The notes below the pieces were generated by a model that had not been told where the DNA came from, did no database searches, and was given only the letters and a program-made list of their open reading frames with translations. Below are positions 12,639-44,179 of a stretch of 64,000 nt of DNA, in pieces; position 1 is the first letter of the stretch; every line of letters starts with the position of its first letter. Source of the stretch: Bacteroidota bacterium (lineage in GTDB: Bacteria > Bacteroidota > Bacteroidia > Chitinophagales > Saprospiraceae). The translations under genes were made by a program, and so were the position numbers. The stretch lies in assembly GCA_020160935.1 (NCBI GenBank), contig JAIUPL010000003.1, positions 62,001-126,000 on the forward strand, written 5' to 3'.

Positions 12639-12729
12639 GTAGCCCGTACGGGAATCGAACCCGTGTTACAGGAATGAAAATCCTGCGTCCTAACCCCTAG
12701 ACGAACGGGCCTCTTGGCGGAAGCGGGGC
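12639..12729. repeat. attL: 91-bp direct repeat containing tRNA-Glu
   Basis: Bases 12639-12729 are identical to 44089-44179. The identity starts at GTAGCCCGTACGG and ends at AAGCGGGGC, and diverges at once on both sides. The repeat covers the whole tRNA plus 18 bp upstream of its 5' end. An integrase gene begins 42 bp further on. This identifies the left junction of the element. Confidence 0.93.
12640..12711 (-). tRNA. tRNA-Glu (anticodon TTC), left copy
   Basis: On the minus strand the 72-nt cloverleaf has acceptor GGCCCGT/ACGGGCT with a G-U at 1-72, anticodon stem CAGGA/TCCTG with loop TTTTCAT (anticodon TTC) and T-loop GTTCGATTC. CCA is not encoded. This copy keeps the host terminator but has element DNA upstream with no TAnnTTTG box, so it may be silent in the lysogen. 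Confidence 0.95.
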
Positions 12730-12744
12730 GCGAAGCAGAACGGG

Positions 12745-12764
12745 ACGACACCCAAACGACACCC
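12745..12764 (+). promoter_or_regulatory. Candidate integrase arm-binding sites (left)
   Basis: Two tandem ACGACACCC words lie here, 16 bp inside attL. The 11-mer AAACGACACCC at 12754-12764 recurs at 44022-44032, just inside the other end. Paired words at both ends fit arm-type sites of a lambda-type integrase. They were not tested. Confidence 0.45.
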
Positions 12765-12770
12765 GCTTAC

Positions 12771-13931
12771 ATGACAATCAGGATGAACCTAAAACGAACG
12801 ACCGGCAAACGATCCAGCATACGAGCAATTATCAGGCGAGAAGGGAAAAAATATAGCATTGGAACAGGTGTGACGGTTGATATAGAAGACTGGGATACAA
12901 AACGAGAGCGTTGCAAAACCAACACAATTGCAAATGCAAAAATCGAAGAGGTACGGAAAAAAATACAGCATTACATCGAAACAACGGGGTGTATTCCAGA
13001 AAAAAAGCATATTGAAAAAGAGGGAAGAGAAGCCATACAAGACCTGATCGAGGAGAAAAGATTGTCAATGGTAGCAATGAACTCAAGCGAGAACTCCTGG
13101 AGGTCGTACACAACCCTATCAAGCCTTGTAAGGCGATATACAGAAGAAACAAAGCGGAAAGAGGTATATGTCGACGAAATCACAACAAATTACATTGACA
13201 AGTTCATCGAATGGATGGTAAGCAAAGATTATGCAAGTAGCCATATTACTAAAATGACCCGCATACTACGAACGGTAACGCGCGAAAGGGTGAGCGAAAC
13301 ACAATGGAGAAAAGCAAAAATCCCCAAAAACCAGTTCACAGAAATGATATACCTCTCGAAAGAAGAGATAGAAAAGATAGAGAGATTCAATATTGACCAG
13401 AACGACAGCCTATCAAAAGTCCGCGATCTATTCCTCATCGGATGTTATACCGCTCTCAGGTACTCCGATTGGAGAAAAGTCGATGAAACAAGGGTGAAAA
13501 CAATTGGAAACGTACGCATACTAATAATAACACAACAAAAAACAGGAGGGCAAACTACGCTTCCTATTACAGATAAATTAAACGCCATCATGCAGAAATA
13601 CAAGGCTGATGGCATACCTAAACTATCAAATCAAAAATTCAATCAACGGGTAAAGGAATTGTGCCGAAAGGCTGGCATTACACAAAATGTAGCCTATACT
13701 GAATACAGAGGGGGGAAAATAATATCGATTACAGCGCCTAAATGGACTTTAATTTCATCACACACGGCCCGACGATCCTTCGCCACCAATGCGGTAATGG
13801 CGGGCATTCCATTCGTGGAGGTTATGAAATTCACAGGCCACAAATCGATGGCTGCTTTCATGCAGTATGTTCGTACAACCGGCCAGGAGGCTGCTGTCAA
13901 CTACGCGAATCACCCGTTTTTCACGCAGTAA
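12771..13931 (+). CDS. int: Tyrosine recombinase (phage integrase)
   Basis: It catalyses site-specific integration and excision at tRNA-Glu. The 386-residue protein has an N-terminal arm-binding region, a SAM-like core-binding domain (about 110-200) and a catalytic domain. Catalytic residues are visible: Arg in CYTALRYSDWR near 230, HTARR near 330, His in FTGHKSM near 357 and the nucleophile Tyr in MQYVRTT near 366. The domain order matches Bacteroidota integrases with Arm-DNA-bind_5 and SAM_5 domains. The ATG at 12771 is preferred; an in-frame TTG at 12714 would start inside attL. Confidence 0.93.
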   Translation: MTIRMNLKRTTGKRSSIRAIIRREGKKYSIGTGVTVDIEDWDTKRERCKTNTIANAKIEEVRKKIQHYIETTGCIPEKKHIEKEGREAIQDLIEEKRLSMVAMNSSENSWRSYTTLSSLVRRYTEETKRKEVYVDEITTNYIDKFIEWMVSKDYASSHITKMTRILRTVTRERVSETQWRKAKIPKNQFTEMIYLSKEEIEKIERFNIDQNDSLSKVRDLFLIGCYTALRYSDWRKVDETRVKTIGNVRILIITQQKTGGQTTLPITDKLNAIMQKYKADGIPKLSNQKFNQRVKELCRKAGITQNVAYTEYRGGKIISITAPKWTLISSHTARRSFATNAVMAGIPFVEVMKFTGHKSMAAFMQYVRTTGQEAAVNYANHPFFTQ

Positions 13932-20721: not shown

Positions 20722-21768
20722 ATGAAAAAAATCCTCCAACATCCTGAAACCGGCATCAACCTCGTGTGCCTTGTCATTTCCGCGCTCGCGCCGGCGCTTG
20801 CCATCGGCGCCACGGTTGGGCTACCGACCGGCCTTGCCATCGCCCTGGGCCTTGCAGCCACCATTACAGCGCAACGGCACAATTCGGCCAGCGTACGCAA
20901 TCAGTACCGGGTGGGCGCGTGGATTATCCGGATTTTTTCAGGCTGCTTCGAACAAATGGCATACAGCGACCAATTCGCACAGCGCCCGTCGCTGCCTTTT
21001 GACCTGTCGGCCACCACCTGGGCATGGATAGCCACGTTTTTCATGGCTGCGCTAGATCTGTGGGCGCTTTCTGCAACCTCCAGCAAAGCCAGCGCCGCCG
21101 CCGAGGCCAAAGCCGAGGAAGAGAGTTACGCCCGGGTCGAACGCATGCAACAAGAGAAGGAACGGGCCGAGGCGGAGCGCCGCAAAATGGAACTCGACGC
21201 GCAGTTGGAGATCGAGCGAGTCAAAGCGGAGGCAGAAGCCCGGAAGGCGGAAAAAGAAGCGGAAGCCAGGGCGGAAATAGCCCGAGCGCAGGCGGAAGCA
21301 GCACGGAAACAGGCGGAAGCGGACGCGGAAGCCCGGAAGGCTGAGGCGGAAGCCAAGCGACGCCAGGCGGAAATCGACGCGGAAACCCGGAAGCGTGAAG
21401 CGGAAGCAGCGGAAAGGAAGGCGGAAGCCGAGCGGAAAGAGCGGAAGGAGCAAGCGGAAGCCCGGAAGCGCGAAGAGGAAGAGAAACGGAAGGCGGAAGC
21501 GGCGGAAAAGGCTGAAAATGAACGGATTGAACGCGAAAGGGTAGAGGCTGAACGCCGCGAAGCGGAAGCCGCACGCAAACAGGCGGAAGCAGGAGCGGAA
21601 ATGAAAAACCGATGGGCGGAAGCCAGCACCGACGAGCGCCGGAAATTGATCGAAGAAGCGGAAGCGAAAATTGAAGCGGAAACCGGACGGAAGGCAACCA
21701 GGGCAGAAGTGGCTGCCAGGCTCGGAACAACGGACCGAACCGTAAGAACCTATGCAAACGCAGCCTGA
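20722..21768 (+). CDS. Membrane-anchored long coiled coil with C-terminal helix-turn-helix
   Basis: The 348-residue protein has two or three membrane segments in residues 10-120 (INLVCLVISALAPALAIGAT; WAWIATFFMAALDLWALSAT), then about 190 residues of Ala/Glu/Lys/Arg-rich coiled coil full of KAEAE and RKAEAE units (residues 125-310). It ends in RKATRAEVAARLGTTDRTVR, which looks like a helix-turn-helix. The layout suggests a DNA-tethering membrane protein. The DNA repeats CGGAA many times, as does the gap at 31.85-32.0 kb. Confidence 0.8.
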   Translation: MKKILQHPETGINLVCLVISALAPALAIGATVGLPTGLAIALGLAATITAQRHNSASVRNQYRVGAWIIRIFSGCFEQMAYSDQFAQRPSLPFDLSATTWAWIATFFMAALDLWALSATSSKASAAAEAKAEEESYARVERMQQEKERAEAERRKMELDAQLEIERVKAEAEARKAEKEAEARAEIARAQAEAARKQAEADAEARKAEAEAKRRQAEIDAETRKREAEAAERKAEAERKERKEQAEARKREEEEKRKAEAAEKAENERIERERVEAERREAEAARKQAEAGAEMKNRWAEASTDERRKLIEEAEAKIEAETGRKATRAEVAARLGTTDRTVRTYANAA

Positions 21769-27026: not shown

Positions 27027-27371
27027 TTACCCGTTTTCCTCATCCTCAACTGGCTCGTTTTTCGGCTCAGTTTCAGCGCTACCAATTGCGGATTCGGCCC
27101 TTTTAAAGACTGCTGCCCACAACTTTTCCACACCAGCCAGCACTTGCTCTGATGTAAGGCCGATCAGGCCGCATATCCCGAATGTAAGATGAACGGATAC
27201 AGTCGTGTAATACATCAAGGCAGACCCCGCGGCTACACAAAGCACGAAGGCGGTAAGCGCTTCGATCAGCGCCCGGCGTATGGTAAGCCCATTCCGAAAG
27301 GCGCGGATCGCGCCGGCTGCAGCGCCAAACGCGGCGCTTGAGGCAAGAAATTTCCAGTTGTCAAAGTCCAT
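27027..27371 (-). CDS. LydA-like phage holin
   Basis: A 114-residue protein with three hydrophobic segments after MDFDNWKFLASSAAFGAAAG and an IRRALIEALTAFVLCVAAGS motif, then GICGLIGLTSEQVLAGVEKL, matching the LydA/phage_holin pattern. Holins permeabilise the inner membrane at lysis. No partner endolysin is recognisable in the element. The ATG at 27371 is chosen because the upstream extension is Arg-rich and runs into the odd GC-rich gap. Confidence 0.72.
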   Translation of the reverse strand: MDFDNWKFLASSAAFGAAAGAIRAFRNGLTIRRALIEALTAFVLCVAAGSALMYYTTVSVHLTFGICGLIGLTSEQVLAGVEKLWAAVFKRAESAIGSAETEPKNEPVEDEENG

Positions 27372-28452
27372 AACGAAGCGGATTAAAGGTGTTCTGAATA
27401 AAGGCAAATGTAGTGCCACGTCTGCACCCAATCCGGTAACCTGGTAAGGGATGTAATCACACACACACACAGCAGCAGGCAAGTTACGGGGGCGGCGGAC
27501 ACACGCGCAAGGTGTTCGGGCGCTCCTCGCCGGTCGCCTACGCCTCCGCGGTCGTCGGTCGTGCCTCCCTCCTCCCTTGTGCGGCTTGGACTCCCGGCTC
27601 CGGTGCGTCCGCTCCACCTTGCGCTTAGTGCCGCCTAACCCCCGTGTGCCCTTCGGTGCCTGCGCGTGTGCGTGGGCGCTCTTGCCGGGGCGTTCCGGCC
27701 TTTTCGTTTTCCATGCCTCGTTTGCTTGCCCCCCGTCCTCGTTTGCGCCGCGCGTTTCGGGCGCTGTGTTGCTTTTGCCCTTGCTGTTCGGCTGTCGTGC
27801 CGCGCTGGCCGGGTTTCTGTCCGTCGTGCCTTGCTCCTTTTCCGGTTCCGGCGTCCGCGCCGGTTCCGGCTGGTGGGGTGGGGGCCGTCCTGGCCGGTTT
27901 TGCTTCGGTCGGCTTTTCCGGGTCGCGCTCGTGTGCGGCTGCCGTTGCTGCAGGTTTGTCGGTTGTTGCGCTGCTTCCTTCGTCTTGCTCGGTTTCAGTC
28001 GGTTGCGCTGCGGGGCTTGATGGTGCTGTGCGTGCTGCGGTGCCGGGTGCTGTTGTGTTTCGTGCGGCTTCTCGTCGTCCCGGCGCTCTTGCCTCCAGGT
28101 CGTCTGCGCTCGTTCGTTCGGTTGCGGCGGCTGGTGGCTTGCTCGTCGTTTGCCCGGCCGCTGGCCAGGCTTGTCCGGCTGGCGTTCGTCCCGGCGCTGC
28201 TTTCTCGGGTGGTGGTTCTGGTTCCTGGGCGTCGGCCGCGCTGGCTGTGCAGTCGGGCTGTGCGGTGCTTGTTTGGTCCGCTTCGCTTCCGGCGTGGCTC
28301 GTGTCGGCCGGTTTCGCTCCTGCTCCGGGCTGGTGGTTTCGCCCGGGCGTTTCTTCGCAGGGCTCGCTTTTTTAGCGGGCTCTGCTCACCCAAAAAGAAA
28401 AACCGCCCCGCAGTTCCTGCGGTAGCGGCCAACACATTCACGCTTACAGTTT
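27372..28452. other. 1.08-kb gap with an almost adenine-free plus strand
   Basis: From 27661 to 28380 (720 nt) I count nine A on the plus strand. The minus strand, which is the strand of the operon transcript, is therefore almost free of T. Stop codons all contain T, so all three minus frames stay open for hundreds of codons but also lack ATG. Plus-strand frames of 240-266 codons also exist and read as Cys/Arg/Val/Leu-rich low complexity. I call no gene. It sits where tail genes usually follow the head-tail adaptor. Confidence 0.85.
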
Positions 28453-28731
28453 TTATGCCTTCATAGAGGCAGGGATGTCGCACTCAATAGCGGTATAGTC
28501 AATACTTACCTGGGCGACATTCTGAACGACATAATCATTCCCGTCCCAAATTATCTTCCACGATGGGAGCACGTCAGTCCGTGCTCGAACTGTGAAAACG
28601 ACATTCGTTTTTGCGATCTGGAAATTATTGTGATAACTCACTTTTGCCCACACGGTTTCGATAGATACGGAAGCATCGTCCAATATTTCGATACGCCTGT
28701 TGAGGTCACTGAATTGAATTTTCTTCGCCAT
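28453..28731 (-). CDS. Phage head-tail adaptor (head closure, SPP1 gp16-like)
   Basis: A 92-residue protein of the head-tail joining family: LNRRIEIL near residue 10, VWAKVSYHNN near 27, FTVRARTDVLPSWKIIWDGN near 46 and YVVQNVAQVS near 67. It would close the head-tail interface. It is 2 bp after the connector gene and is the last recognisable structural gene; the next genes that should follow (tail completion, tail tube) are missing. Confidence 0.82.
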   Translation of the reverse strand: MAKKIQFSDLNRRIEILDDASVSIETVWAKVSYHNNFQIAKTNVVFTVRARTDVLPSWKIIWDGNDYVVQNVAQVSIDYTAIECDIPASMKA

Positions 28732-44088: not shown

Positions 44089-44179
44089 GTAGCCCGTACG
44101 GGAATCGAACCCGTGTTACAGGAATGAAAATCCTGCGTCCTAACCCCTAGACGAACGGGCCTCTTGGCGGAAGCGGGGC
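44089..44179. repeat. attR: 91-bp direct repeat containing tRNA-Glu
   Basis: Identical to 12639-12729. It marks the right junction. Sequence to its right is host DNA carrying the tRNA promoter. Confidence 0.93.
44090..44161 (-). tRNA. tRNA-Glu (anticodon TTC), right copy with host promoter
   Basis: The cloverleaf is identical to the left copy. Upstream it retains TATCTTTG and TTG at 21-bp spacing, so this is the copy likely expressed in the lysogen. Its 3' flank is element DNA; no terminator hairpin follows closely, and transcription would run toward the 54-residue gene's terminator on the opposite strand. Confidence 0.95.

Follow-up and report, generated by a model that had tools for sequence, protein, structure and literature searches.

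The window analyzed in this work is a stretch of 64,000 nucleotides of a Bacteroidota bacterium of the family Saprospiraceae (assembly GCA_020160935.1, contig JAIUPL010000003.1, positions 62,001 to 126,000 of the forward strand), and it contains, at 12640-44161, a prophage-like element bounded by two copies of tRNA-Glu (12640-12711 and 44090-44161). Beside the first of these lies an integrase-like gene (12714-13931; the name is by our reading), which has a homologue in a related contig (L004; loci outside the window are designated by L and a number). The element carries a minus-strand late operon encoding terminase, portal, protease, capsid, a collar-domain fibre, head-tail adaptor and head closure. 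However, no tail genes were recognized after the head-closure gene, nor in the relatives L004 and L014 (the latter a viral contig from a metagenome), and in this regard the element is satellite-like and resembles capsid-forming satellites. The last gene of the late operon (28453-28731, minus strand) is head-tail adaptor/head closure-like, and a hairpin plus T-run at about 28385-28430 (minus strand), which was read by eye, appears to terminate this operon. On the other side, a holin-like gene is found at 27029-27371 (minus strand), and between them lies a block of highly unusual composition. The terminase of this element had no relative at the cut-off in 297 other genomes of the family or 395 other genomes of the order, and two scans of genome contigs also found none, but the terminase of L014 is 66% identical to it.

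The positions 27661-28380 of the window contain exactly 9 A among 720 bases (G 264, T 228, C 219). Based on the A fraction of the window (0.263), the binomial log10 P of this is about -79, and the next poorest 720-base stretch in the window has 105 A. The observation in the earlier note, that about nine adenines are present in this strand, is thus correct, although the A-poor stretch is longer and extends from about 27511 to 28387, with single A's at 27540, 27590, 27616, 27627, 27637, 27638, 27713, 27952, 27997, 28020, 28097, 28167, 28251, 28359 and 28374. The stretch is not an assembly artefact, as the independent contig L014 has the same block at the same locus, viz. after its head-closure gene, and homologues are carried by complete cyanobacterial plasmids. 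Short tandem repeats of the CTTTGCC/CTTGCCC type, which form A-free tracts at about 23530-23935 of contig C1 of the host genome, are unrelated to this block.

The longest open frame on the plus strand runs from a GTG at 27644 to a TAG stop codon at 28373-28375 (27644-28375, 243 aa, 9 A in 732 nt). However, the conserved domain begins near 27890 and the true start may be a later GTG, such as that at 27878-27880. The conserved core (27890-28375) contains the motifs VGFSGSRS, VGCAAGLD and GGGSGSWAS and ends in QGSLF; one of the few retained A's is in the GAT codon at 28019-28021, which encodes an invariant Asp, and the C-terminal QGSLF together with the TAG stop occupies 28358-28375. Upstream of the longest frame there is an A-poor leader (27511-27643, 6 A in 133 nt), which is conserved with L014. 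A long leader hairpin is predicted at 27478-27650 (RNA MFE -92.2 kcal/mol and z -3.8 for 27478-27660), with an inverted repeat at 27494-27514/27615-27635 that by eye can also pair in L014, and it has a possible regulatory role.

The earlier note took the relevant RNA to be the complementary, almost U-free strand transcribed as part of the late operon, which could not contain stop codons, and its proposals for the block were a remnant of a repeat-rich gene, a packaging or R-loop-forming site, or a long stop-free linker. However, neither strand carries stops, as the absence of A on one strand means the absence of T on the other, and the late operon appears to end before the block, at the hairpin plus T-run that faces the gene. 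We also pursued initially a U-free non-coding RNA or an A/T/P-rich protein on the minus strand, as the block is 3-periodic and conserved with L014, but searches with the window and L014 blocks gave no Rfam match at gathering score, and the plus frame explains the periodicity, the third-position changes and the shared stop. The blocks of the window and L014 align over about 1 kb, and in both of them the plus frame ends in ...GFAPAPGWWFRP...QGSLF-stop. In this frame the core is 73% identical at the protein level, the mismatches by codon position are 0.22/0.16/0.56, and there are 61 synonymous differences in 161 codons, which is the mark of a translated, selected protein. Four other pairs of homologues, including one A-rich/A-poor pair, show the same ordering. 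A conserved protein in one frame was the result that had been named beforehand as refuting the note's reading, and these comparisons show such a protein, although from sequence evidence and without proteomics. The interpretation in the note was therefore only partly supported: the composition is real and local and needs a process specific to this block, but the minus-strand transcript and the other options that it proposed are not supported. It is true that no Pfam family hits the window protein, that six open frames follow trivially from the composition, and that the leader is conserved with non-triplet gaps, but in view of the codon-position pattern and the fold and motifs conserved across phyla, a non-coding, remnant or artefactual origin of the block is very improbable.

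Relatives of this gene were not found by DNA similarity in the genus, where 37 of 42 genomes (own included) had hits at E up to 1, all but the own copy being of chance length (best outside own E 0.006), and there was no match in phage records. A conserved 17-mer at the end of the gene, searched in viral contigs, gave five stretches, of which one is the L014 contig, and the two inspected most closely (L090 and L092) are by our reading coding coincidences. Direct tblastn with the window protein found nothing in plasmids or phages, probably because the low-complexity filter masks it. However, a weak DNA match to two cyanobacterial plasmids led to homologues that are themselves T-free on the opposite strand, and with the Microcystis protein, tblastn found 17 plasmid records, all of them cyanobacterial, and none in phages. 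Further, a profile search found homologues in 10 of 395 genomes of the phylum Bacteroidota and in 11 viral contigs, one of which is that of L014. The conserved features of this family are VGFSGSRS, VGCAxGxD, GRxAFAxRS, GxGSGSWAS and a C-terminal QxxLF. Of the 17 plasmid records, 10 were read (H3, H4, H9, H10, H13 and H15-H19), and the Stanieria member (L098) came from the DNA match rather than from this tblastn search. The table of 28 members described below leaves out L108 and L109 (frameshifted), L118/L121 (Ns and frame break), L119 (frame break), and L111, L122 and L127 (duplicates of the window, L014 and L126, respectively), and for L129 only part of the gene is on the contig. These genes are missed or misplaced by standard gene finders, as none was listed over the Microcystis copy and antisense genes were listed over the two Nostoc copies L103 and L104.

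The fold of the protein is predicted to be SLOG/DprA-like. An AlphaFold2 model of the window core with ten viral homologues gave pLDDT 85.1 and pTM 0.83, and the best matches of this model in VIA-align are a molybdenum-cofactor-binding protein (Z 11.9), four DprA entries (Z 10.2-10.4), ShosA (Z 10.0) and a LOG-type protein (Z 9.2), although Foldseek had no hit in the PDB at E 0.001 or below. Some of the viral hits are named as SLOG. With DprA and the SLOG superfamily (YspA/DUF2493, LOG, ShosA, ThsA SLOG) the protein shares the predicted Rossmann-like fold (Z about 8-12) and the GSR and GCAxGxD motifs, but it is a single domain of about 165-190 aa with a QxxLF tail and a coding strand nearly without A. 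The window protein itself is not hit by any family model, and in single members DprA is seen only below the curated cut-offs, viz. PF02481 with E 2.8e-4 (20.6 bits, cut-off 29.6) and 2.2e-3, and TIGR00732 with E 0.0029 (16.8 bits, cut-off 191). The tail, for which forms such as QLSLF, QGSLF and QLGLF are seen, resembles the pentapeptide QL[SD]LF by which proteins bind the beta sliding clamp, but a role of this kind is surmised from the motif alone.

Of the 28 members compared, 24 have 0.3-6.4% A on the sense strand, where the flanks have 13-39%, whereas four (L113, L115, L116 and L126) have 12-19%. At fourfold degenerate sites only 69 of 3257 codons end in A, in comparison to 19.2% in 192 flanking ORFs of the same loci, but it should be noted that the members are related, so that the counts are not independent, and the baseline ORFs were picked mechanically. 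The C, G and T at these positions follow local GC, so only A is shunned, and only on one strand. The avoidance also depends on the preceding base: GA is seen in 2 of 846 cases (about 140 expected), TA in 8 of 767 (about 108 expected) and CA in 59 of 1644 (about 348 expected). Among 23 complete A-poor members the stop codon is TAG in 20, TGA in 3 and TAA in none, TAG being the choice with fewest A's and no GA. In the alignment of A-poor members only two columns widely keep residues that require A, viz. the Asp of GCAxGxD (24 of 24) and the Gln of the tail (17 of 18 aligned), and one further column has Gln in 6 of 24. The A-poor stretch ends at or close to the stop codon in the 11 members plotted, and in the window, L014, L123 and L114 it also covers long stretches before the core that are not conserved as protein; in L123 it begins at the ATG shared with the A-rich relative L126. 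In the tree, L126 nests among A-poor Nostoc genes and the other three A-rich members form one clade, indicating that the property can be lost. However, leaders are not A-free in general, as the 60 nt before the start hold 12-19 A in 6 of 10 A-poor members tested, 6-7 in two, and 5 and 2 in the window and L128, which does not fit a requirement for an mRNA that is A-free from its 5' end.

These distributions also bear upon a mutational origin of the composition, in which a directed or biased process would strip A from the sense strand of this gene while purifying selection keeps the Asp and Gln codons and the stop. In favour of this, A is replaced by all three other bases according to local GC, and copies with a broken reading frame (L108:3938-4501, L109:3923-4537 and L119 around 1243-2092) are still A-poor to their end, so that decay of the composition is slow or recent. 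However, such a process would need a mutator aimed at one gene in the plasmids and phages of two phyla, and another aimed at C in the next gene (see below), and ordinary mutation would keep restoring A at fourfold sites; we regard this possibility as very unlikely.

Clustering of the neighbouring genes showed that on several cyanobacterial plasmids, and in L126/L127, the gene directly upstream encodes a protein with hardly any Pro, Gln, Thr, Ala or His, and the sense strand of this gene is nearly free of C. It has 0.9% C on the plasmid pSYSX, 1.0% in Synechocystis B12, 0.6% in Stanieria and 2.0% in L126, where the flanks have 17-23%, whereas two Nostoc copies have 7.2 and 7.7%. Elsewhere the family has 0.6% (L156, 3 C in 495 nt, two of them in His codons), 2.0% (L153) and 4.4% (L157). 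Members of this family are located at L101:4155-4619, L126:2188-2682, L156:4001-4495 and L100:72-551, either upstream of the A-poor gene or on their own, as in L153, which has no A-poor gene within 4 kb. Of 10 plasmid records with the C-poor gene, 8 also hold the A-poor gene. There is no C in the 100 nt upstream of the gene in four cases (L101, L108, L126 and L156). A more distant relative that clustered with it (L105:4533-5090), which lies directly downstream of the A-poor gene, has a normal C content of 19.2% and also ends in QLSLF; thus two different proteins of the same locus share the tail motif. L126 has lost the A rule in one gene but keeps the C rule in the other. The C-poor gene encodes a putative AlkB-like 2OG-Fe(II) oxygenase. 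However, this assignment is weak, as the HxD...H arrangement is seen by eye, the Pfam hit (2OG-FeII_Oxy_3, E 0.0011) is below cut-off, the PDB profile hits are to an S. pombe protein at E 0.74, and a structure model reached a pLDDT of only 38 and was not used. A scan of the loci gathered up to that point found no comparable G- or T-poor sense strands, apart from a coiled-coil gene in the window (20722-21768, plus strand) and a C-poor low-complexity stretch in L075; in the coiled-coil gene a segment at 21080-21600 falls to 5 T per 300 nt, but its Ala/Glu/Lys/Arg composition may explain this without a base rule.

In 8 of the 11 plasmid loci read, an ArdA or a zincin/ArdC-type gene lies within a few kilobases, the ArdC domain being confirmed by Pfam in one of these (ArdcN in L102), and SSB, ERF, Rad52 or Gp157 genes also occur. 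In this respect the plasmid members are similar to the leading-region anti-defence/anti-restriction islands of plasmids (PMC11541004). However, PLSDB types these plasmids as non-mobilizable, no transfer origin was located, although without a dedicated oriT search, and in the window prophage the gene lies alone between the late operon and the holin. The plasmid pSYSX carries two copies coding the same protein accession, and in the part of it examined (about 88 of 106 kb) no other 300-nt window comes near to them, the next lowest away from the gene holding 47 A. In Bacteroidota and viral contigs the gene often sits near phage genes such as terminase or portal.

The analysis establishes that the block is a protein-coding gene on the plus strand of a tail-less, satellite-like prophage, that it belongs to a family of predicted SLOG/DprA-fold proteins of phages and plasmids, that in most members the sense strand, and so the mRNA, avoids A at all codon positions except where a key residue or the stop codon needs one, and that on several plasmids a neighbouring gene for a putative AlkB-like oxygenase avoids C in the same way. 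What we infer beyond this, because the exclusion follows coding limits, applies at synonymous sites, spares only indispensable codons and has a 5'-neighbour preference, is that the avoidance is selected on the message. In this view each gene is written without the base that an attack targets, so that it can still be translated while this attack is under way in the entered cell, and the product would then help the element to establish, in line with its place beside ArdA, ArdC-type, SSB and recombination genes on plasmids. We consider this explanation about as likely as not. The attacker, the activity of either protein, the binding of the sliding clamp and, by analogy with DprA, ssDNA binding and RecA loading are matters of inference only. 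The simplest reason for shunning single A's one by one is an activity that acts on A in RNA while the gene must be expressed, either by A-directed mRNA cleavage, ribosome-coupled cleavage or adenine modification, and a C-directed one for the partner. Known examples of such attacks on A in mRNA, which an A-free message would escape, are CmdT of the CmdTAC system, which ADP-ribosylates mRNA at the adenine of GA dinucleotides (PMC11618068), HigB-type ribosome-dependent toxins, which favour codons with third-position A (PMC9098466), and A-specific Csx1/Csm6 effectors (PMC9676260). The GA pattern fits a CmdT-like attack and the coding-limited pattern fits a ribosome-coupled one, although A is avoided here at all three positions, and none of these systems has been shown to meet these elements. 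Further, a type III CRISPR attack in Synechocystis does not explain the A-free gene, as the characterized Csx1 of this host, whose plasmid carries the gene, is cytosine-specific (PMC9676260). It also counts against the explanation that the four homologues with normal A content have the same core motifs, so the fold does not demand the exclusion.

Other explanations for these patterns are also possible, but they appear less likely. The SLOG protein itself, or its direct partner, may damage adenine in RNA or DNA, its own message lacking A so that it is not its own victim, with the C-poor oxygenase gene being the analogue for C. The base exclusion is confined to this gene and its partner rather than the rest of the element, and the SLOG superfamily includes N-glycosidases acting on adenine nucleotides, such as LOG, to which a LOG-type fold match was seen. 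However, the homologues with the same core and normal A content speak against such self-immunity, no catalytic signature other than one Asp stands out and no activity is known, and it is thus regarded as unlikely. It is similarly unlikely that the cause lies at the DNA level, where the sense strand would be exposed single-stranded (in transfer, replication or the transcription bubble) to an A-directed enzyme or, on the other strand, a T-directed one, or where the gene would evade restriction, as the absence of A on a strand removes every palindrome with A or T. The plasmid copies do sit with leading-region-type genes, and GA avoidance on one strand equals TC avoidance on the other, but the exclusion tracks coding limits, stopping at the stop codon and in most members tested starting at the start codon, GC-only sites remain plentiful in the block, and phage members enter as double-stranded DNA. 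A further possibility is that an A-free (or C-free) gene can be transcribed when ATP (or CTP) is depleted or poisoned by chain-terminating analogues. This would explain why single A's are costly, and the leader is also A-poor in the window, L014 and L128 and C-poor for about 108-147 nt in four of six C-poor genes. However, in view of the normal A content of the leaders of 6 of 10 A-poor genes tested, and as ATP is needed for translation anyway, this is considered quite improbable.

While the fold is known, no description of this family, of its three-base coding or of the A-free/C-free pair was found in our searches, which were limited to open-access full texts. The protein family has been rebuilt from roughly ten amino acids so that its message contains almost no A, and the presence of a C-free neighbour makes an explanation peculiar to A less likely, suggests one letter per threat, and points to a general rule rather than a freak. 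A and C are the two bases whose alkylation AlkB reverses, and our boldest reading, which we put forward as doubtful but not excluded, is that mobile elements carry 'lipogram' genes, in which each message is spelled without one base so that it can be made and read while this base is under enzymatic attack, and its product undoes or blocks the same attack. In this view the A-free SLOG gene would answer an attack on A and the adjacent C-free AlkB-like gene an attack on C, and the missing letter would name the base that the product protects, giving a way to read an unknown defence from the composition of its counter-gene. If the avoidance is an escape from base-specific attack, it exposes a class of defences that act on single bases of messages, offers composition as a search signal for counter-defence genes, and gives natural three-base genes for testing how coding works under such attack.
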